The translations under genes and the position numbers were made by a program. Positions 8,088 to 46,530 of a stretch of 64,000 bases of DNA are shown here, one piece after another. The notes below the pieces were generated by a model. That model was not told the origin of the DNA, did not search any database, and saw only the letters and a program-made list of their open reading frames with translations. Position 1 is the first letter of the stretch. Every line of letters starts with the position of its first letter. Source of the DNA: Flavobacterium sp. 1 (GTDB taxonomy: Bacteria > Bacteroidota > Bacteroidia > Flavobacteriales > Flavobacteriaceae); contig NZ_PGER01000001.1 of NCBI RefSeq assembly GCF_002797935.1, forward strand, positions 620,001 through 684,000, read 5' to 3'.

Positions 8088-8849
8088 TTATCGAATCGCT
8101 TTCACAAAAGTATCAATCTTTCCAGTTCCATTATCTTTTAAATGCGTGATAAAAGCACTACCAATAATAGCTCCTTTGGCATATTGAGTAGCTTGATTGA
8201 AAGTTTCGGCATTATTGATTCCGAAGCCAATGATTTGAGGATTTTTTAGATTCATATCGGCAATGCGTTTGAAATAATCTTCTTGAGTGCTTCCAAAACC
8301 AGATTGTGAACCAGTAACACTTGCCGAGCTCACCATGTAAATGAATCCACTAGAAACACTGTCAATAAAACGAATGCGCTCGTCTGACGTTTGCGGTGTA
8401 ATCAAGAATACATTGATTAATCCGTATTTATCGAAAGTTGCTTTGTATTGTTCAGCATATACATCTACAGGAAGGTCAGGAATGATTAAACCATCAATGC
8501 CAATTTCAGCACATTTTTTGCAGAAATTTTCGACACCGTATTGTAGCATTGGGTTGAAATACCCCATAATCACTAGTGGGATGCTTACGCTTTCGCGAAT
8601 GTCTTTTAGCTGGTCAAATAAAATTTGAGTGGTCATTCCGTTTTGCAAAGCTTTTGTTGAACTCGCCTGAATCGTTGGTCCATCGGCTAAAGGATCACTA
8701 AATGGCAATCCTATTTCGATCATATCGACACCATTTTTTTCTAAATCCTGAATGATTTGTAAGGTGTCATTCAAGTTAGGATATCCTGCTGAAAAATAGA
8801 TGGAAAGTATCTTTTTGTCTTCTTGTAGTTTTTGTTTTATTCGGTTCAT
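8088..8849 (-). CDS. trpA: Tryptophan synthase alpha subunit
   Basis: TrpA cleaves indole-3-glycerol phosphate to indole and glyceraldehyde 3-phosphate; indole is channelled to TrpB in the alpha2-beta2 complex. The 253-residue TIM-barrel protein shows the catalytic Glu45 (MIEIGLPFSDP) and Asp56 (ADGPTIQ), the loop GIDGLIIPDLP, and the phosphate-binding GFGI and IIGSAF segments. It is the last gene of the trp operon, 34 bases after a GGCT-like gene, and is followed by a strong terminator. Its length is normal for the family. Confidence 0.97.
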   Translation of the reverse strand: MNRIKQKLQEDKKILSIYFSAGYPNLNDTLQIIQDLEKNGVDMIEIGLPFSDPLADGPTIQASSTKALQNGMTTQILFDQLKDIRESVSIPLVIMGYFNPMLQYGVENFCKKCAEIGIDGLIIPDLPVDVYAEQYKATFDKYGLINVFLITPQTSDERIRFIDSVSSGFIYMVSSASVTGSQSGFGSTQEDYFKRIADMNLKNPQIIGFGINNAETFNQATQYAKGAIIGSAFITHLKDNGTGKIDTFVKAIR

Positions 8850-8883
8850 TTTTCTTATTTCTTTAAAAGCTCTTTATTCGTTT

Positions 8884-9204
8884 CTAAATAGCAGCACTAT
8901 AAGCCCATGCATTTTGATTGGACTGCAAATGTACTTCTACACGCTTGTAATGCAGTCCTTCATACAAATCTGCTTGACGGAGTTCACTTTGCGTTACTTC
9001 GTATAAGGTACCGCTAATGGTATCATTTGAGTTTTCGGTTTCCATTATAATAGGGTAGTGGACTATTCCAAATTCTTCTTCAATTTGTATTTCATTTAGT
9101 TCATAACCTACTAATATTTCTGGTGTTCCTTCAAGAATACGTCCAAAAAGGTCTTGTTGTACATCCTCATGCTGTAAGGTGCCGTAAGCGAATAATTTTT
9201 GCAT
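8884..9204 (-). CDS. Gamma-glutamylcyclotransferase (GGCT/AIG2)-family protein
   Basis: The small protein of 106 residues has the family signature YGTLQ near the N-terminus (7-11), the hydrophobic core PIIMETENSNDTISGTLYEV, and Glu82 in DLYEG at the position of the catalytic acid. Such proteins open or cyclise gamma-glutamyl amides, but substrates of bacterial members are mostly unknown. It sits between trpB and trpA on the same strand, separated from trpB by a 105-base repeat element, so it is probably transcribed with the operon. No role in tryptophan synthesis is evident. Confidence 0.85.
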   Translation of the reverse strand: MQKLFAYGTLQHEDVQQDLFGRILEGTPEILVGYELNEIQIEEEFGIVHYPIIMETENSNDTISGTLYEVTQSELRQADLYEGLHYKRVEVHLQSNQNAWAYSAAI

Positions 9205-9258
9205 AGAATCTATTTTGAAAATGTTAATAAACTTAAATTTGATACTTATCTCGAATGC

Positions 9259-9363
9259 GCGTTAGGGATGGTAGTGGAGCTTTTTTTATTAATTGCCACG
9301 GGTTTAAACCCGTGGCAATTAATAAAAAAAGCGGGAACGTACAGCCCGACCCTTGGGGAACGC
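9259..9363. repeat. REP-like palindromic element A (trpB-GGCT spacer)
   Basis: This 105-base element is bounded by inverted GCGTT / AACGC and contains a perfect 54-base palindrome (9279-9332) centred on GTTTAAAC. Conserved blocks are TTAGGGATGG on the left and CAGCCCGACC on the right. The AGCCCGACC block recurs in the element at 22.1 kb, and a related layout occurs at 46.3 kb. It resembles the dispersed intergenic repeats common in Flavobacterium genomes. In RNA it would form a very long hairpin inside the trp transcript. Confidence 0.85.
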
Positions 9364-9376
9364 ACAAATTATTATA

Positions 9377-11194
9377 TTACAATTTGAAATAATCGATGTA
9401 ATTGTCTAAATCTTTGTCGCCGCGTCCTGAAAGACTGATTACTACAACATCTGTCGGCTTGAATTTTTTCTGGTCTAAGACAGCAAATGCATGCGCACTT
9501 TCGATGGCTGGAATAATTCCTTCTAATTTTGTAAGCTGTAAACCTGCGTTCATGGCTTCATCATCGGTTACGGAGAAGAATTCGCCACGGCCTGTTTGTG
9601 CCAAATGTGCGTGCATAGGACCAACTCCTGGGTAATCAAGTCCTGCAGAAATCGAGTACGGTTCAGTAATCTGGCCGTCTGGAGTCTGCATCAATAGGGT
9701 TTTACAGCCGTGAATAATCCCCACTTTTCCTAGTTTACTGGTTGCCGCGCTATGACCGCTGTTAACGCCTTTTCCGGCAGCTTCAACTGCAATAATTCCA
9801 ACTTCGGGCTCGTGTAAAAAGTGATAATATGTTCCAGCAGCGTTACTTCCGCCACCAATGCAAGCCACTACATAATCGGGGTTTTCGCGTCCTTCTTTCT
9901 CTTTTAACTGCCATTTGATTTCCTCGGAAATGATGCTTTGAAAACGGGTTACCATATCCGGATAAGGATGCGGTCCAATGGCTGACCCAATGATATAATG
10001 GGTATCTACTGGATTGTTAATCCAATCGCGGATGGCTTCGTTAGTAGCGTCTTTCAGCGTTCGCGAACCCGAAAGTGCAGGACGAACTTCGGCACCCAGC
10101 ATTTTCATTCGGGCAACATTTGGTGCTTGACGCGCAATGTCGATTTCGCCCATGTACACAATGCATTCCATGCCCATTAAGGCGCAGACAGTAGCTGTTG
10201 CCACTCCATGCTGACCTGCACCAGTTTCGGCAATGATTCGTTTTTTGCCCAAACGTTTTGCAACTAATATTTGCCCAATTGTGTTGTTAACTTTGTGCGC
10301 GCCTGTATGATTTAAATCTTCTCTTTTCAGATAGATTTTGGTATTGTATTTTTCTGATAATCTTTTGGCAAAATACAGCGGACTGGGACGGCCTACGTAA
10401 TCTTTTAGCAGTTGATTAAACTCTGCTTTAAACTCGGGTTCGGCTGTGATTTCTAAATATTTCTGGCGTAATTCTTCTACATTTGGGTATAACATTTCGG
10501 GAATGTAGGCTCCTCCAAATTCTCCGTAATATCCTTTTTCGTTAACGTTGTATGACATTTTATATTTTTTAATTGTTGAGATGCACTGCAGTGCATCTTT
10601 ACATAATGATGTATTTTTTAATCCTGATTCAATTTCAAATTTACTATTTATGTCAATGGCATAAATGGGTAAATCGGTTTTTAAAATTTCATTTATCAAA
10701 TCCAATTCTTCAATCCCAATGCCGCCACTAAGGAAGAACGGTTTTGTCGAGGGATATTTTTCTAATATTTTCCAGTCGAAAGTGATTCCGTTGCCACCGG
10801 GCAGTTTTCCTTTGGTGTCAAAAAGAAAATAATCACAAACAGTTTCATAAGGCTCTAAAACGCTGAAATCAAAATTTTCGTCTGCCGAAAACACTTTGAT
10901 GATTTCAACTGCTGTACCAAATTTAGTTTTTATTTCCTTACAAAATACAGCTGATTCCTGACCGTGCAGCTGAACAGCCTGCAAATCGTATTTTGTTATT
11001 TTCTCTTCAATTATGGAAATACTTTCATTGACAAAAACGCCCGTTTTCTTAATAGATTTTGGTAATTTGGGCATATCTCCGTCAAAATAGCGAGCCGATT
11101 TAGGCCAAAATATAAATCCCATATAATCGGGCAGGAGCGAGCCTACTTCGAGTATATTGTCGGGGTATTTCATGCCACAGATTTTGAGTTTCAT
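9377..11194 (-). CDS. trpF-trpB: TrpF-TrpB in one reading frame: phosphoribosylanthranilate isomerase + tryptophan synthase beta
   Basis: A single 605-codon frame encodes both enzymes. Residues 1-212 are TrpF, which isomerises phosphoribosylanthranilate: KICGMK with the catalytic Cys6, [18 protein letters not shown] with the catalytic Asp, and LSGGI. Residues 213-605 are a normal 393-residue TrpB, which joins indole and serine: [10 protein letters not shown] with the PLP lysine (K89 of TrpB, K301 of the fusion), GGGSNAAG phosphate loop and a C-terminal SGRGDKD segment. No stop codon separates them. The last TrpF residues (about 198-206) are encoded by a palindromic repeat. The usual TrpB start ([14 protein letters not shown]) follows an A-rich stretch, so TrpB may also be made separately. 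A sequence error removing a stop is possible but is not indicated by the reading frame. Confidence 0.9.
10556..10572 (-). other. Internal start for TrpB within the fused frame
   Basis: ATG at 10558-10556 begins the conventional TrpB N-terminus and is preceded by AATTAAAAAATATAAA, the kind of A-rich leader that serves for initiation in Bacteroidota. A free 393-residue TrpB (9377-10558) could therefore be produced alongside a TrpF-TrpB fusion. Confidence 0.55.
10575..10602. repeat. Palindromic repeat inside the end of trpF
   Basis: A perfect 20-base palindrome AGATGCACTGCAGTGCATCT (10579-10598), with arms extending imperfectly to GTTG / TTAC. It matches the pattern of the repeat after dnaK at 24288-24317 (GTAGAGAnGCACTG / GTGCGTCTCTAC). 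Here it is translated as the C-terminal residues of TrpF, immediately before the trpB start. Confidence 0.8.
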
Positions 11195-11210
11195 AATGTA
11201 CTTTTTTTAT

Positions 11211-11286
11211 AACCACGAAGTTCGCAAAGAAGACGCAAAGTTCACAAAGCTTTGTGTTCTTAGTGATTTCTCTGTGTCTTTTGTGT
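11211..11286. repeat. Dispersed CGCAAAG-type repeat between trpC and trpF
   Basis: The spacer begins AACCACGAAGTTCGCAAAG, continues with GACGCAAAGTTCACAAAG, and is centred on the perfect palindrome CACAAAGCTTTGTG (11243-11256). I recognise this wording from intergenic repeats of Flavobacteriaceae. A shorter piece with the same words (ACCGCAAAGACGCAAAGG) lies at 14684-14705 before trpG's neighbour. Confidence 0.65.
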
Positions 11287-12069
11287 TTAAATTAATTGAT
11301 TAATAAATTCCGTTGCTGCTTTTCCTGCATCATCGGTTTTCATGAAGTTTTCTCCAATCAAAAATCCTTTGTAACCATAAGGCTTAAGTTCATTAATAGC
11401 TTCGATTGACGAAATACCGCTTTCTGAGACTTTCACGAATTCATCTGGAATTTTTGAAGCCAGTTCTTTACTGAAATCCAAACTTACTTCGAATGTTTTT
11501 AGGTTTCTGTTGTTTACCCCAATCATATCCAGCGTTGGCATGATTGATTTTTCTAATTCCACGAGATTATGCACTTCTAATAATACTTCTAATCTTAAAC
11601 TTTTGGCAAATTCGGATAATGATTTGATTTCGTCTCTAGTTAAAACGGCTGCGATAAGCAAAATCAAATCGGCTCCGTGTGCTTTTGCTTCCAGGATTTG
11701 GTATTCATCTACAATAAATTCTTTTCTCAAAAGCGGAATATTTACTGAAGCTCTGGCTAAAAGCAAATCATCTAATGAACCTCCAAAATACTTTCCATCA
11801 GTCAATACTGAAATACCGCAGGCACCGGCACTTTCGTAACCTTTGACTACTTCTTCAACAGTAAAACTTTGATTGATAATTGACTTTGAAGGGGAACGGC
11901 GTTTGTGTTCTGCAATGATTCCAGAGTTGCTGTTTCTTAAATTTTGGCTTAAAGAAATAGTATTTTTTCCAAAGAAAATCGAAGCTTCCAATTGTGAAAT
12001 AGGAATGATGGATTTTTTGAGTACGACTTCTCTTTTTTTGTCGATTATGATTTTATCTAGTATGTTCAT
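11287..12069 (-). CDS. trpC: Indole-3-glycerol phosphate synthase
   Basis: TrpC closes the indole ring: carboxyphenylamino-deoxyribulose phosphate to indole-3-glycerol phosphate, CO2 and water. The 260-residue TIM barrel has the diagnostic IIAEHKRRSPSKS motif (catalytic Glu and Lys), LRKEFIVDEYQI, GADLILLIAAVL, GVNNRNLKTFEV and the phosphate-binding SESGI. It starts 2 bases after the stop of the methyltransferase-like gene, so translation is probably coupled. Standard length. Confidence 0.97.
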   Translation of the reverse strand: MNILDKIIIDKKREVVLKKSIIPISQLEASIFFGKNTISLSQNLRNSNSGIIAEHKRRSPSKSIINQSFTVEEVVKGYESAGACGISVLTDGKYFGGSLDDLLLARASVNIPLLRKEFIVDEYQILEAKAHGADLILLIAAVLTRDEIKSLSEFAKSLRLEVLLEVHNLVELEKSIMPTLDMIGVNNRNLKTFEVSLDFSKELASKIPDEFVKVSESGISSIEAINELKPYGYKGFLIGENFMKTDDAGKAATEFINQLI

Positions 12070-12071
12070 TT

Positions 12072-12752
12072 TTATTTTCTTTTAATAACTAACATTTGGT
12101 TTCCGTCTTTCTGAAATTCATAGTCAGAAGATTCAATACTTACAACGAAATCAGAATTAAAATGATTAATGATATCATCCAAAACCTCCGATTTCGCTGT
12201 ATTCAAATTCAATATCGGAAATATTCTTATTTCTTTACTAATTCGTAGCATTTCGGTAATGGATTGAATGTGGAAGTCCAATCCTAATTGCGAATACAGA
12301 ATCAAAAAATGGGAACTTAAACCCAAATCAAATTCGAGAGTATCGTATTTTGTTGAATTTGGCAACTCGTGGTAAACATATCTTTGCTGTTCTTTCCCCA
12401 ATTCAAAGTCATCAACAAAATTAGACATTGCTCCCATACGGATCTGTTCTAATTCCTCTACATTTTTAATATTTTTCCAAACGAATTTTTCCTGATTCGT
12501 TCTCATTTGTTCCATAACGGTTTCCTTTGTTTCGTTAATTCGCTGTTTTAATTCAGCTTTTGTGAATTGATAAATGGGATCTAATGAAACTACTTTTTTT
12601 CCAAGTTGTGTCATCTCTGAATTGAAACTTGCCGGCCCATCTCCAAAACTGATGATTTTGCTGTTCAAATCGAAATCCGTCAGTTTGAAAATTTTAATAT
12701 ACTCATCTAAATTTCTACCCCATGGAACTACATTTTTTAATTCAAAAGCCAT
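12072..12752 (-). CDS. SAM-dependent methyltransferase-like protein within the trp operon
   Basis: This 226-residue protein begins FELKNVVPWGRNLDEYIKIF and has a glycine-rich FGDGPASFN motif (36-44) after a beta strand, followed by VVSLDPIYQF, the order of motif I and the acidic residue of motif II in Rossmann-type methyltransferases. I recognise the VPWGR plus GDGPASFN pattern as a conserved bacterial family annotated as methyltransferase, without a known substrate. It is packed between trpD (3-base gap) and trpC (2-base gap), clearly cotranscribed. Function in tryptophan synthesis is not known. Confidence 0.75.
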   Translation of the reverse strand: MAFELKNVVPWGRNLDEYIKIFKLTDFDLNSKIISFGDGPASFNSEMTQLGKKVVSLDPIYQFTKAELKQRINETKETVMEQMRTNQEKFVWKNIKNVEELEQIRMGAMSNFVDDFELGKEQQRYVYHELPNSTKYDTLEFDLGLSSHFLILYSQLGLDFHIQSITEMLRISKEIRIFPILNLNTAKSEVLDDIINHFNSDFVVSIESSDYEFQKDGNQMLVIKRK

Positions 12753-12755
12753 GAT

Positions 12756-13751
12756 TTAGTCTTTGCTTAATTCTTGTAATTTATTCAAAGCTAATAGCCC
12801 TTTTCCAGAAAACAAACTTTCTTTGGCTAATTCAAAACCTTTGAGTGGTGTGCATCCTGTAACCGTTGCAATTGCTATTCCGGCATTGGCACAAACCACA
12901 TTGTTTTGAGCTTCGTTTCCTTTTCCAGAGATTATATTCATGAACATTTCTGCTGATTCTTCGATGGTTTTTCCGCCATCTATTTCGCTTTGTTCCAATA
13001 GGCGGACACCAAAATCAGCTGGATTCAACATTCCTTCTTTAGTGCTGGTTATAATTTTTGTAGGGCCAGTCAAAGAGACTTCATCATAACCGTCCAAGGA
13101 ATGCAAAATTGTAAAATTCACATCGGTATTTTGGTATAAATAACTGTACATTCTGGCTAATTCGAGATTGAAAACTCCAACCAATTGGTTTTTTGGAAAA
13201 GATGGATTCACCATTGGTCCCAACATATTGAAGAAAGTTTTAACTCCCAATTCTTTTCGGATGGGGCCCACATTTTTCATGGCTGGGTGAAACAAAGGCG
13301 CATGCAAAATGGCAATTCCAGCTTTGTCGATGCATTTTTCTATAAAAGCATTGTCGTTGCTGAATTTCACTCCCAATTTCTCCATTACGTTACTGGACCC
13401 CGAAATAGAAGATACTCCGTAATTTCCATGTTTGGCCACTTTGATTCCTGCTCCAGCGGCCACAAAAGAAGCTAAAGTCGAAATATTGAAAGTGTCTTTT
13501 CCGTCACCACCAGTACCACACAAATCGATAGTGTTATAAGCTGATAAATCTATTCGAATGCACAATTCCAAAAGCGCTTCCCTGAATCCTGCCAATTCTT
13601 CGATACTGATGCTTCTCATCATATATACGGTCAAAAAGGCCGAAATCTGGCTTGGATTGTAACTCCCGCTTGAAATATTCACCAATACGTTTTTGGCTTC
13701 TTCTTTGGAAAGAATTTCGTGATTGATTAATCTGTTTAATATGTTTTTCAT
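12756..13751 (-). CDS. trpD: Anthranilate phosphoribosyltransferase
   Basis: TrpD transfers phosphoribose from PRPP to anthranilate. The 331-residue protein has the N-terminal helical domain, the PRPP-binding LCGTGGDGKDTFNIS (77-91), KHGNYGVSS, the anthranilate-site segment LFHPAMKNVGPIRKELGVKTFFNMLGP, and DEVSLTGPT. It lies between the cytochrome c lipoprotein gene (95-base gap) and the methyltransferase-like gene. TrpG is a separate protein here, not fused to TrpD. Confidence 0.97.
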   Translation of the reverse strand: MKNILNRLINHEILSKEEAKNVLVNISSGSYNPSQISAFLTVYMMRSISIEELAGFREALLELCIRIDLSAYNTIDLCGTGGDGKDTFNISTLASFVAAGAGIKVAKHGNYGVSSISGSSNVMEKLGVKFSNDNAFIEKCIDKAGIAILHAPLFHPAMKNVGPIRKELGVKTFFNMLGPMVNPSFPKNQLVGVFNLELARMYSYLYQNTDVNFTILHSLDGYDEVSLTGPTKIITSTKEGMLNPADFGVRLLEQSEIDGGKTIEESAEMFMNIISGKGNEAQNNVVCANAGIAIATVTGCTPLKGFELAKESLFSGKGLLALNKLQELSKD

Positions 13752-13846
13752 TTTTCTATAAAGATGCTAAGTTTCTAAGATACTGATTTTCTAAGTTTTT
13801 ATTTTAAACTAAAAACAGAGACTTAGAACTATTCACTAATTACTAT

Positions 13847-14677
13847 TCACTTTTTATGTTCTGACATGTATTTTAAATAATCAACAATTTCCTGAGATTC
13901 TTGTCTTGTGATTCCCAATGTCGGCATTTTTACTTTGTGTCTGAAAGAAGCTGGATCTACGATATAATCGACCAATTCGTTTTCTTTCCAATATTCAGTA
14001 ATATTTTTGGGATAATTTAATTCAGGTCCCATTTCTCCCCCGATTCCGTTTATGGCGTGGCACGTAATGCATTGTTTCTGGAATAATGCAAATCCTTTCA
14101 TTGCTTTCTCATCATCTTTTGGCTGTAAGGCTTTGATGTTTTTATTTTTCGATTCAAAGCGAAATTTGATAACGTTGTAAGGCCATTTGTATTCCTGATT
14201 ATCTGCAGAAACTGATGTGTAAACCAAATAAAATGGGTCGGCATTCATCTCGTTTCCGTTTTTGATAATCTTTTCCCAATTGGAACCTTTAGGTGCATCA
14301 ACATCTTTAAAAGCCAAAAAAGGGTTTGTTTTTAAAAATAATTCAAGAGGCATTTCAGGTTTATAGCCATCGATGCATTCGAAAATTATTAATGTGTTTT
14401 TTATGTCAACTTTTGATAAATCAATTTCATTTTTTAAAAGTTCTAATGCGTTTACGGCTTGGTATTTCTTTGTTTTATGATAAACGGGGTCATTTACAAT
14501 AGTGACAACAGTGTCTTTTCCCAGTTTGTTTTTTGATTGCAAATCCACCAAATCCAAGACTATTTCAGGTTGGACATTAACTGTCTGCTCTATTTTTTGC
14601 TCCTTCTGTTGATTACAGGAAAGAAGGCTAAAAATAAAAAAGCATGAGAGTATAAGATGGATTTTGACTGTTTTCAT
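13847..14677 (-). CDS. Cytochrome c lipoprotein inserted in the trp operon
   Basis: The 276-residue protein has a lipoprotein signal ending SLLSC (Cys21), so it is exported and lipid-anchored. Residues about 37-175 (IVLDLVDL, FECIDGYKPEMPLELFL, DPFYLVY, WPYNVIKFRF) recall the substrate domain of sulfite-oxidase-fold proteins, but I see no molybdenum-ligand Cys in the usual context. Residues about 190-276 are a class I cytochrome c: CITCH heme site (203-207), GPELNYP and Met251 in KMPTLG as axial ligand. An exported electron-transfer protein is unexpected between trpG and trpD. It has spacers of 76 and 95 bases, so it could be an insertion into the operon. Partner and reaction unknown. Confidence 0.8.
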   Translation of the reverse strand: MKTVKIHLILSCFFIFSLLSCNQQKEQKIEQTVNVQPEIVLDLVDLQSKNKLGKDTVVTIVNDPVYHKTKKYQAVNALELLKNEIDLSKVDIKNTLIIFECIDGYKPEMPLELFLKTNPFLAFKDVDAPKGSNWEKIIKNGNEMNADPFYLVYTSVSADNQEYKWPYNVIKFRFESKNKNIKALQPKDDEKAMKGFALFQKQCITCHAINGIGGEMGPELNYPKNITEYWKENELVDYIVDPASFRHKVKMPTLGITRQESQEIVDYLKYMSEHKK

Positions 14678-14753
14678 TTATTTACCGCAAAGACGCAAAG
14701 GCGCATTTTTTTATTCTTATTTGAGACTTATTCTTAAATTGAATTTTCAAATA

Positions 14754-15320
14754 TTAATTTTTCAACCAGTTTTCTAAAATCTTTTTCCCGTTTGGCGTCA
14801 ATACGCTTTCGGGATGAAATTGGACACCTCTTACATCGTATGTTTTGTGTCTTAACGACATTACCTGACCGTTTTCGTCAAAAGAAGTGGCTTCCAATAC
14901 ATCGGGCAAGTTAGCATCAACTACCCAAGAATGGTAACGTCCCACTTCAAATTCATTTCCTAAGCCTTCGAATAAAAGCTCATCGTCAACTACTGTTTTT
15001 ACTGGTGTTGCAACTCCATGATACACTTTATCTAAGTTAGAAAGTGTTCCTCCAAAAACTTCTCCGATGGCTTGTTGTCCAAGGCAAACGCCAAGAATAC
15101 TTTTCGTTGGGGCATATTTACTAATTACAGCTTTCAATAAACCCGCTTCGTCTGGGATTCCTGGTCCCGGTGAAAGCAGAATTTTATCAAAAATAGCAAT
15201 TTCGTCAATATCAAATTCATCATTTCTATAAACGGTTACTTCGCAATCTAAATCTTCGAGATAATGCACTAAATTATAAGTGAAACTATCGTAATTGTCT
15301 ATGACTAGTATCTTTTTCAT
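14754..15320 (-). CDS. trpG: Anthranilate synthase component II (glutamine amidotransferase)
   Basis: TrpG hydrolyses glutamine and delivers ammonia to TrpE. The 188-residue class I amidotransferase shows the oxyanion loop LLSPGPGIP, the nucleophile Cys79 in ILGVCLGQQAIGE, and the His169/Glu171 pair in VQFHPES. It follows trpE after a 123-base spacer filled by an inverted-repeat element. A dual role in folate synthesis (PabA) is possible because no separate pabA is seen in the window. Confidence 0.95.
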   Translation of the reverse strand: MKKILVIDNYDSFTYNLVHYLEDLDCEVTVYRNDEFDIDEIAIFDKILLSPGPGIPDEAGLLKAVISKYAPTKSILGVCLGQQAIGEVFGGTLSNLDKVYHGVATPVKTVVDDELLFEGLGNEFEVGRYHSWVVDANLPDVLEATSFDENGQVMSLRHKTYDVRGVQFHPESVLTPNGKKILENWLKN

Positions 15321-15443: not shown

Positions 15444-16844
15444 TTATATCGTTTCGGCTAAATCCAAAGCTTTATTCAAAGCGAGTAGTTTATTGTAAAC
15501 CTCCTGCATTTCGCTTTCTTCGTCTGAACTAGCTACGATTCCGGCACCGGCTTGGGAATGTAATTGGTGGTTTTTGCTCAGGAAAGTTCGAATCATAATA
15601 GCGTGGTTAAAGTTACCTTCAAAATCCATAAAACCAATGGCACCTCCATAAAAATTACGGTTTGTTTTTTCGTAATCTTCAATCAACTGCATCGCTCTGT
15701 GTTTTGGTGCTCCGCTCAAAGTTCCTGCTGGAAAAGTATCGGCTACGACCTGCATAGTTGTTGCTTTTTCGTGTAAATGACCCGTTACTTTGGAAACCAA
15801 ATGGATAACGTGAGAGAAAAACTGAATTTCTCTGTATTTTTCCACTTCTACACCATGTCCATGACGGCTTAAATCATTTCGAGCCAAATCTACTAACATC
15901 ACATGCTCACTATTTTCTTTTTTGTCTTCTGATAATTTTTTGGCAAGTACGGCATCTTTTTCGTCATCACCGGTTCGTTTGAATGTTCCTGCAATTGGGT
16001 GAATTTCGGCCTTGCGGTTTTTGACTATAATTTGGGCTTCGGGTGACGAACCAAATATTTTGAAATCGCCATAATCAAAAAAGAATAGGTAAGGGGATGG
16101 ATTGATGCTTCTTAAGGCTCTATAAACATTGAACTCGTCGCCTTTGAATCCTTGTGTAAATCTTCTGGATAATACTAATTGAAACACATCGCCACGGAAA
16201 CAGTGCTTTTTGGCCAAAGCCACATTTTGTTTGAATTCTTCATCGGTTAGGTTCGAAAAACCTTCACCTTCTTTGGAGAATTTATAGGAAGCAATGTTTC
16301 TGGATTGTAACAGTTGTTCAATTTCGGAGATATTGTTTTTTCCGTCAAGGTTGTGGCAGAAAATATAGGCTTCGTTTTTGAAATGGTTGATGGCAATAAT
16401 GTTTTGGTAAACTGCATAATACACATCGGGAATAGAATTGCTGTTTTCTTTTTTGGCTATGGTTACTTTTTCGAAATAACGAACAGCATCATACGAAATG
16501 TAACCAAATAAACCATTGTTAATGAATTTGAAATCGGTTTTGTCGGATTTAAACTGACCTGAAAAATTTTGGATGATTTGAGGAATATCAGTTTTTGCAT
16601 CGATAGTAATAGTTTCAGATGTTCCGTCAGGGTAGTTTTTGGAGATGATTTCGTTTTCTATTTTTATTGAAGCAATCGGATTGCAGCAGATATAGGAAAA
16701 GCTATTGTCGTTTCCGTGATAATCGCTGCTTTCCAGTAATAGACTATTTGGGAATTTATCTCTTATTTTAAAATAAATGCTCACCGGAGTAATCGTATCG
16801 GCTAGGATTTGTTTGTAGTTAGTTTGTAATTTATAGGTTTTCAT
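15444..16844 (-). CDS. trpE: Anthranilate synthase component I
   Basis: TrpE converts chorismate to anthranilate with ammonia from TrpG, the committed step of tryptophan synthesis. The 466-residue protein has the N-terminal LLES motif (36-39) that forms part of the tryptophan feedback site, and the chorismate-binding core: FQLVLSRRF, FGSSPEAQI, HPIAGTFKRTGDDEKD, LVDLARNDLSRHG, PAGTLSGAPKHRAMQLI and GGAIGFMDF. It is the first structural gene of the operon, preceded by a leader peptide and attenuator, so both enzyme activity and transcription should respond to tryptophan. Confidence 0.97.
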   Translation of the reverse strand: MKTYKLQTNYKQILADTITPVSIYFKIRDKFPNSLLLESSDYHGNDNSFSYICCNPIASIKIENEIISKNYPDGTSETITIDAKTDIPQIIQNFSGQFKSDKTDFKFINNGLFGYISYDAVRYFEKVTIAKKENSNSIPDVYYAVYQNIIAINHFKNEAYIFCHNLDGKNNISEIEQLLQSRNIASYKFSKEGEGFSNLTDEEFKQNVALAKKHCFRGDVFQLVLSRRFTQGFKGDEFNVYRALRSINPSPYLFFFDYGDFKIFGSSPEAQIIVKNRKAEIHPIAGTFKRTGDDEKDAVLAKKLSEDKKENSEHVMLVDLARNDLSRHGHGVEVEKYREIQFFSHVIHLVSKVTGHLHEKATTMQVVADTFPAGTLSGAPKHRAMQLIEDYEKTNRNFYGGAIGFMDFEGNFNHAIMIRTFLSKNHQLHSQAGAGIVASSDEESEMQEVYNKLLALNKALDLAETI

Positions 16845-16903: not shown

Positions 16904-16936
16904 GAAAAAAGACCTGTCGTGATGACAAGCCTTTTT
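16904..16936 (-). terminator. Attenuator terminator of the trp operon
   Basis: On the minus strand, AAAGGCTTGTC (16934-16924) pairs with GACAGGTCTTT (16918-16908) over 11 positions with G-U pairs, around an ATCAC loop, and is followed by TTT runs. The loop and stem sequence TCACGAC (16922-16916) is also complementary to GTCGTGA at the end of the leader-peptide gene (16979-16973), which gives the competing antiterminator. Confidence 0.85.
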
Positions 16937-16972
16937 ATATTTATAGTTCAAATAATACTATAGGAGCTTAGT

Positions 16973-17029
16973 TCACGACGACTGACGTAAATTATTCCAC
17001 CACCAAGTATTGTTTGTTATTGTTATCAT
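16973..17029 (-). CDS. trpL: trp operon leader peptide (three consecutive Trp codons)
   Basis: The short frame from ATG 17029 to TGA 16973 encodes MITITNNTWWWNNLRQSS, 18 residues with three adjacent TGG codons in the middle. It begins about 20 bases downstream of the -7 element and ends just before a mutually exclusive antiterminator/terminator pair upstream of trpE. Ribosome stalling at the Trp codons when charged tRNA-Trp is scarce would leave the antiterminator free to form. The stop codon lies inside the antiterminator strand, as expected for a leader whose completed translation favours termination. Confidence 0.88.
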   Translation of the reverse strand: MITITNNTWWWNNLRQSS

Positions 17030-17047
17030 GTTTTAATTTCTTATTTG

Positions 17048-17077
17048 CAAATATATAAATGATATTTGTTTTGACAA
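17048..17077 (-). promoter_or_regulatory. Promoter of the trp operon
   Basis: On the minus strand TTG (17077-17075) and TATATTTG (17055-17048) match the Bacteroidota sigma-A consensus with a 19-base spacer. The predicted transcript start is about 7 bases further on, giving a very short untranslated stretch before the leader peptide. Confidence 0.85.
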
Positions 17078-17132
17078 AAAATATGAAATAAAAAAAAAGA
17101 TATTTTTTTGAATTTTTGTTAAATTTCAATGG

Positions 17133-46200: not shown

Positions 46201-46260
46201 TTTTACCTGAACTCTATTATTATTTTTTGGAGCAGAAAGATTAGGCTTTTTCAGCCGGCA

Positions 46261-46336
46261 TTAGTCCCGCTTTCCGTTTCAATCTTTGTGGGCTGAACCC
46301 CAGCCCACAAAGGATTTTCACTGCAATCGGGGCTAA
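46261..46336. repeat. REP-like palindromic element C
   Basis: CTTTGTGGGCT (46284-46294) and AGCCCACAAAG (46302-46312) form a perfect 11-base stem. The ends TTAGTCCCG and CGGGGCTAA are near-complementary. The outline resembles elements A and B (a long stem within GGGAT / AGCCC-type ends). It lies in a 519-base gap after the M28 gene; the rest of the gap holds only the hairpins at 46435-46565. Confidence 0.7.
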
Positions 46337-46530
46337 AAGGGAATATTTTGCTTTTTTGCCATTATTCAAAAAAAACAATTCAAGGTTTAATTATAGTCCG
46401 CTGTTATTAAGTTAATAAAAAATGAAACGTTTATCCTAACAGTTTTTTTAATCTGTTAGGTATAGTTTCAACCGCTGGAGATAATAATCGAGTTTAGATT
46501 TTTCGTATTATCATTTATGATTCAACAATA

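Follow-up and report, generated by a model that had tools for sequence, protein, structure and literature searches.

The trp operon of Flavobacterium sp. 1 is preceded by a leader RNA that is very probably a ribosome-mediated transcription attenuator of the Bacteroid-trp type, the parts, conservation, spacing and covariation of which are directly visible in the genomes compared. In the family Flavobacteriaceae, the antiterminator strand of this leader pairs with the loop of the terminator and the top of its 3' arm, and the pairing covaries. Leader-peptide attenuation presupposes a ribosome that follows closely behind the RNA polymerase, as is textbook knowledge for enteric bacteria. The Bacteroidetes leaders described here start without Shine-Dalgarno sites, and a family-wide element with a measured distance between ribosome and switch makes coupling in the Bacteroidetes directly testable.

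The trp leader and the Bacteroid-trp RNA family

The element is situated in a stretch of 64,000 nucleotides (contig NZ_PGER01000001.1, positions 620,001 to 684,000), here called the window, on the minus strand between a YceI-like gene (17702-17133; PF04264) and trpE (16844-15444). Just 5' of trpE, the leader carries three Trp codons in a row (WWW), as checked by script. The parts, in window positions, are the following:

17048..17078, minus strand: predicted sigma-A promoter of the Bacteroidetes type (TTTG at 17078-17075, a 19-nt spacer and TATATTTG at 17055-17048)
16973..17029, minus strand: leader ORF of 18 codons, MITITNNTWWWNNLRQSS, plus stop (ATG at 17029, Trp codons at 17005-16997, stop at 16975-16973)
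16949..17016, minus strand: protector hairpin of the Trp-codon segment with CTCCTATAGTATT, which buries GTCGTGA (from the fold; the structure in Rfam RF01692)
16973..16979, minus strand: antiterminator 5' strand, GTCGTGA, whose 3' end is the leader stop codon (from the sequence and the spacing across loci)
16916..16922, minus strand: antiterminator 3' strand TCACGAC, formed by the terminator loop and the first three nucleotides of the 3' arm (from covariation with the 5' strand)
16905..16936, minus strand: intrinsic terminator with a 13-bp stem (AAAAAGGCTTGTC at 16936-16924, loop ATCAC at 16923-16919, GACAGGTCTTTTT at 16918-16906, T run to 16905)
15444..16844, minus strand: trpE, anthranilate synthase component I, predicted first regulated gene (PF00425, PF04715)
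8088..15320, minus strand: trpG, a cytochrome c-like gene, trpD, a 226-aa ORF, trpC, trpF-trpB in one frame, a 106-aa ORF and trpA (from ORFs and Pfam, the Pfam basis excluding the 106-aa ORF and trpA, which was named by reading its sequence)

A first-pass annotation of the same DNA had already proposed most of these parts. The 18-codon WWW leader gene on the minus strand was recovered by script at 17029-16973, GTCGTGA (16979-16973) is complementary to TCACGAC at exactly 16922-16916, and the terminator does reuse TCACGAC in its loop and 3' arm. The consensus promoter read there is likewise present, its type now being refined to that of the Bacteroidetes (TTTG/TAnnTTTG). The long hairpin between the Trp codons and CTCCTATAGTATT was absent from that annotation, yet it is the structure that Rfam models. 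Together with the terminator, this hairpin (17016-16949) makes up the fold of the 142-nt leader RNA, which is more stable than that of shuffled sequences (z -3.22; 1 of 200 shuffles as good); once the 3' arm of the terminator is removed, the fold is no better than shuffles (z 0.05). Two exact patterns for the terminator stem and the switch retrieved no second copy from the Flavobacterium sp. 1 genome. The terminator stem GGCTTGTC/GACAAGCC (window 16936-16906, minus strand) is nearly identical in most genera read, a likeness that exceeds what pairing with the leader needs.

The leader is no new element; its RNA family has been described before. It matches Rfam RF01692 (Bacteroid-trp) over the full model (1-131) with 78.1 bits at a gathering cut-off of 49, and shares with this family the sequence, the hairpin, the short tandem-Trp ORF and the place 5' of trp genes (trpE starts at 16844). 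No other copy in the genome exceeds the cut-off; four further matches are weak (24-26 bits) and were taken as chance. The element has been listed as a cis-regulatory RNA of the Bacteroidetes (Weinberg et al., 2010; PMC2864571), and a 2019 paper reports the same RNA as conserved before the trp operon of F. psychrophilum, noting its similarity to the leader of E. coli (PMC6414381). In an RNA-seq study of that species, clues to leader-peptide attenuation are described before amino-acid operons and five Rfam cis-elements are expressed (PMC9723704). Neither of these two papers, in the relevant passages on the F. psychrophilum trp leader, describes the geometry of the switch, its spacing or its covariation. 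By the words searched, Bacteroidetes are not mentioned in a 2010 survey of premature terminators (PMC2965389), the pertinent passages of a Bacteroides thetaiotaomicron map mention leader-like short ORFs without trp (PMC7366714), and the fhsA motif is presented in the corresponding text as a candidate riboswitch found in Leptotrichia and in environmental DNA, with no leader peptide named there (PMC11109978). Among the matches listed in the open-licence literature, no title or abstract holds a closer description of the switch, and none reports a bench test of leader-peptide attenuation in Bacteroidetes.

The RF01692 model stops in the 5' arm of the terminator, and its structure line represents the protector hairpin only, without the terminator 3' arm and the antiterminator. 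The present analysis supplies this omitted half of the switch. Beyond the Rfam model and the published passages it adds the antiterminator geometry with its covariation, the fixed spacing and possibly leaderless transcripts, the geometry being a modest refinement.

The leader is widely conserved. A WWW leader ORF is found at most 400 nt 5' of trpE in 80/80 of the closest trpE loci, which were picked by TrpE similarity alone as the best 80 of 576 and of which 75 are titled Flavobacterium. Since every one of these loci has a WWW leader, and since the RF01692 match reaches 78.1 bits, the occurrence of the trp leader parts before trpE is confirmed and chance is ruled out. WWW is likewise present in 110/110 loci with a parsed leader. 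RF01692 matches (E <= 0.1) occur in 169 of 199 Flavobacteriaceae genomes (198 genera), 123 of them over the cut-off, and in a sample of the phylum 35 of 296 genomes match (E <= 0.01), 29 from the same family, one from the order and five from the class; loci found in this way were picked by score and are biased towards the model. Genomes without an RF01692 match do not necessarily lack a leader, because 13 of the 15 TrpE loci inspected in such a set (L143-L157) have a WW leader. This set comprised 20 of the 30 negatives, G445 and five relatives from the same order (26 genomes); a TrpE match (E <= 1e-20) was found in 23 of them, several being partial or 27-31% identical, and 15 of the resulting 30 TrpE loci were read.

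A filter for leader plus terminator parsed 177 of 185 loci. It failed for L088, L095, L129, L132, L144, L154, L156 and L232, of which L088, L095, L129, L132 and L154 show a leader and a hairpin by eye. Removal of 16 further Flavobacterium loci and of L260 (wrong ORF) left 160 loci, 10 of them outside the family and several sharing a genus. A TrpE frame lies downstream of 153 of these 160 leaders (tblastn, E <= 1e-3), and the distance from the last Trp codon to its implied start is 79-357 nt, with a median of 112. For the remaining seven, inspection by eye suggests trpB (L119), trpD (L174, L176) or a TrpB-like frame (L284) as the next ORF; another ORF follows L210, and the ORF after L175 and L283 is unassigned.

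Antiterminator geometry, covariation and spacing

In the E. coli trp attenuator, the partner of the antiterminator strand is the terminator 5' arm. Both systems share tandem Trp codons, a protector, an antiterminator and a terminator, with the position of the ribosome deciding between them, and in the window the terminator (16936-16905) lies between the leader ORF and the first structural gene, while the Trp segment forms a protector helix (1:2). The systems differ in that this leader has three Trp codons, no Shine-Dalgarno site and an antiterminator (2:3) that uses the loop and the top of the 3' arm in place of the 5' arm. Pairing of the leader end with the loop and the first four nucleotides of the 3' arm beats shuffled leaders in 137/160 loci at p <= 0.05 and in 100/160 at p <= 0.01, the shuffles preserving base composition only. 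All 137 are among the 150 loci within the Flavobacteriaceae. The test fails in 23/160 loci, namely 13 within the family (L136, L139, L140, L145, L148, L149, L151, L217, L222, L273, L274, L275 and L287) and all 10 outside it. Conversely, pairing with the top of the 5' arm beats shuffles in 5/160 (L138, L150, L153, L174 and L176), all outside the family.

An exact copy of the enteric geometry, with the antiterminator on the terminator 5' arm, is therefore unlikely for this leader. It does hold in L138, L174 and L176, and a weak UAAGCU:GGCUUG helix in the fold of the window would fit it, but no locus within the family passes the 5'-arm test. Furthermore, the masked fold showed a possible second antiterminator helix, in which the terminator 5' arm would pair with an AAGC located 3' of TCGTGA. 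In the 131 of 160 loci that have TYGTGA, this helix scores below shuffles (7.5 observed vs 8.2 shuffled), and it was rejected. Of the enteric attenuation logic proposed in the first-pass annotation, the trp attenuator with a WWW leader thus stands as the best reading and is supported, with tryptophan as the probable signal judging from sequence, while the antiterminator takes the loop and the 3' arm and not the 5' arm. The comparison among relatives that it suggested turned out positive: related genomes keep the TGG run as well as the alternative stems, and these stems covary.

Outside the family, the E. coli-like pairing with the 5' arm involves GGCAACCT/GGCAGCCT with GGGTTGCC in L174 and L176 and TCAAAGT with ACTTTGA in L138 (p = 0.005 each).

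Covariation between the two strands was assessed by permuting partners among loci, those outside the family included; relatedness was reduced by removing duplicates, without a tree. Observed pairing exceeds permuted pairing for the 144 distinct combinations (2175.5 vs 2015 +/- 14; 0/1000 permutations reach it), for a set with each distinct loop represented once (n = 31; 407.5 vs 308 +/- 13; 0/1000) and for the 31 combinations without TCACGA (396 vs 301 +/- 13; 0/5000). Both strands have changed in TCGCGA:TCGCGA (L146), TGTCGCAAT:ATTGCGACA (L241), TCGTAAA:TTTACGA (L277), TCGTAAT:ATTACGA (L281) and ACCGGAT:ATCCGGT (L157), and TTTGGAA:TTCCAAG in L151 narrowly misses the 0.05 level (p = 0.055). 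Several loci with an odd loop keep the common leader and would pair equally well or better with the common loop. A pooled cross-species score was uninformative, with a median of 46% of non-cognate targets scoring as well, because most loci share TCGTGA; the deduplicated permutation was used instead.

The antiterminator strand is held at a fixed distance from the Trp codons. From the first nucleotide of the last Trp codon to TYGTGA, taking the copy nearest the stop, there are 20-22 nt in 110/110 loci and exactly 21 in 101. Meanwhile the first nucleotide of the stop codon lies anywhere between 11 nt upstream and 8 nt downstream of the start of TYGTGA, and TYGTGA occurs in all three reading frames (101, 7 and 2 loci). 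If the start of the helix is located by pairing alone, it falls 19-23 nt from the Trp codon in 148/160 loci (144/150 in the family), compared with 495/3200 shuffled leaders. If the ribosome is assumed to cover 15 nt upstream and 12 nt downstream of its A-site codon, the strand stays free in 137/137 significant loci when the ribosome is modelled on the last Trp codon. When it is placed at the stop codon, the strand is covered in 135/137, the exceptions being L100 and L243, where the stop is too far upstream.

These distances also bear on the idea that the nascent leader peptide itself, rather than codon stalling, arrests the ribosome in response to free tryptophan, as in TnaC-like systems. NNTWWW or a close form recurs in many genera, as such a peptide might require. 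However, the codons before WWW also sit in the protector helix, the residues after WWW vary, the peptide ranges from 13 to 20 aa, and the presence of TYGTGA in three frames indicates that RNA and not peptide is held constant there. Peptide arrest is accordingly a very improbable explanation, and stalling on the Trp codons is the reading carried forward.

A ribosome-dependent model of the switch

Stalling, kinetic capture and the control of the trp leader by tryptophan are steps that we infer. When charged tRNA-Trp is scarce, the ribosome would stall on WWW, open the protector hairpin and free GTCGTGA about 21 nt downstream. As the loop and the first nucleotides of the 3' arm leave the polymerase, GTCGTGA would capture TCACGAC and delay nucleation of the terminator, and transcription would run on into trpE. 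When tryptophan is plentiful, the ribosome would reach the stop codon, in or near GTCGTGA, and cover the strand, allowing the terminator to form. The terminator would form as well in the absence of translation or after ribosome release, when the protector hairpin would hide GTCGTGA.

The window RNA was folded with the ribosome-covered nucleotides masked; the figures below give, for each helix, the highest pair probability. With the loop plus GAC exposed, the antiterminator reaches 0.65-0.69 with the ribosome on the Trp codons and 0.0 with the ribosome at the stop. Three nucleotides later, the stalled state still gives 0.58-0.62 for the antiterminator, and the terminator reaches 0.92 at the stop. 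With six nucleotides of the lower 3' arm exposed, the terminator prevails whatever the state of the ribosome (0.88-1.0), and therefore the switch would have to be kinetic, with the loop occupied before the stem nucleates. Without a ribosome, the antiterminator has 0.67 at loop plus GAC, and three nucleotides later 0.30 vs 0.53 for the terminator; these values indicate that the protector does not exclude the antiterminator at equilibrium, and in the ribosome-free case the earlier-formed protector is assumed to hold GTCGTGA. The duplex energy of the protector averages -11.2 over the 160 loci, compared with -7.6 for shuffles, and is individually significant in 50/160 at p <= 0.05 and in 7/160 at p <= 0.01.

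Loop capture would not in principle keep the lower terminator stem from forming. Such coexistence would also be compatible with GTCGTGA making a kissing contact that aids termination, and the pairing does involve the loop. Read-through would then need a ribosome that blocks the contact, and the ribosome that should terminate would be the one to block the strand, which would turn the operon on in the presence of abundant tryptophan, the opposite of what a biosynthetic operon needs. We give the kissing contact very little credence. For loop capture as an antitermination step, the balance tips slightly towards a distinct design of the Flavobacteriaceae, in which a strand set by a ruler of about 21 nt, independent of frame, stop and sequence, kinetically blocks nucleation in the last few nucleotides before release; since the 5' arm serves as the partner in related lineages outside the family, the two geometries would have interconverted in evolution.

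Promoters, other leaders and the trp cluster

The -7 box TAnnTTTG lies at most 70 nt from the leader ATG in 81/81 loci (the window and the 80 closest of 576), compared with 7.6% of shuffles. By regular expression, the full -33/-7 pattern is present in only 30/81 loci, so that the -7 box alone is general. From the end of this box to the leader ATG there are 16-19 nt in 68/81 loci and exactly 4 nt in 13/81 (L008, L009, L012, L014, L018, L020, L025, L029, L062, L067, L074, L082 and L083). Because of this short distance, the trp leader transcripts of these 13 loci may be leaderless; in F. psychrophilum, 5.5% of mRNAs are reported as leaderless (PMC9723704). A regular-expression search for Shine-Dalgarno-like sites found none in 109/110 leaders and one in the remaining leader.

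Leader-like ORFs also occur elsewhere in the same genome (G000:C1, L293, L294, L295 and L296), before hisG (MLSIQLHHHHSHNCSQAMC), pheA (MSNNRFYFSNSFYFFFRK) and ilvD (MKHIINVLLVLSVIVIITYEKGLV), each followed by a terminator, and before one of two homoserine dehydrogenase genes, where the ORF ends in TTTSTTTTTP. None of these four leaders has an Rfam match; structured elements before hisG and pheA are mentioned for F. psychrophilum (PMC9723704). Loop capture is not clear in these leaders: the his leader gives a best p of 0.027 for the 5' arm and 0.07 for the loop, neither pairing is significant in the phe and ilv leaders, and no terminator of the thr leader passed the filter. Upstream of the homoserine dehydrogenase leader there is a Flavo-1 motif (RF01705; L296:625-702). 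Two more are present in the window, at 9244-9355 (plus strand), between trpB and the 106-aa ORF, and at 46259-46338 (minus strand).

The genes of the trp cluster probably form one transcript. The cytochrome c-like gene (window 13847-14677, minus strand) lies between trpG and trpD, and the 226-aa ORF (window 12072-12752, minus strand), which has no Pfam match, between trpD and trpC. TrpF and TrpB are encoded in one open frame of 605 aa (window 9377-11194, minus strand; PRAI 4-203, PALP 268-590). This frame is matched in 29 of 41 genomes of the genus, Flavobacterium sp. 1 included: in 4 of the 29 it is full-length without a stop, in 3 full-length with one internal stop, and in 22 the two parts are separate or partial.
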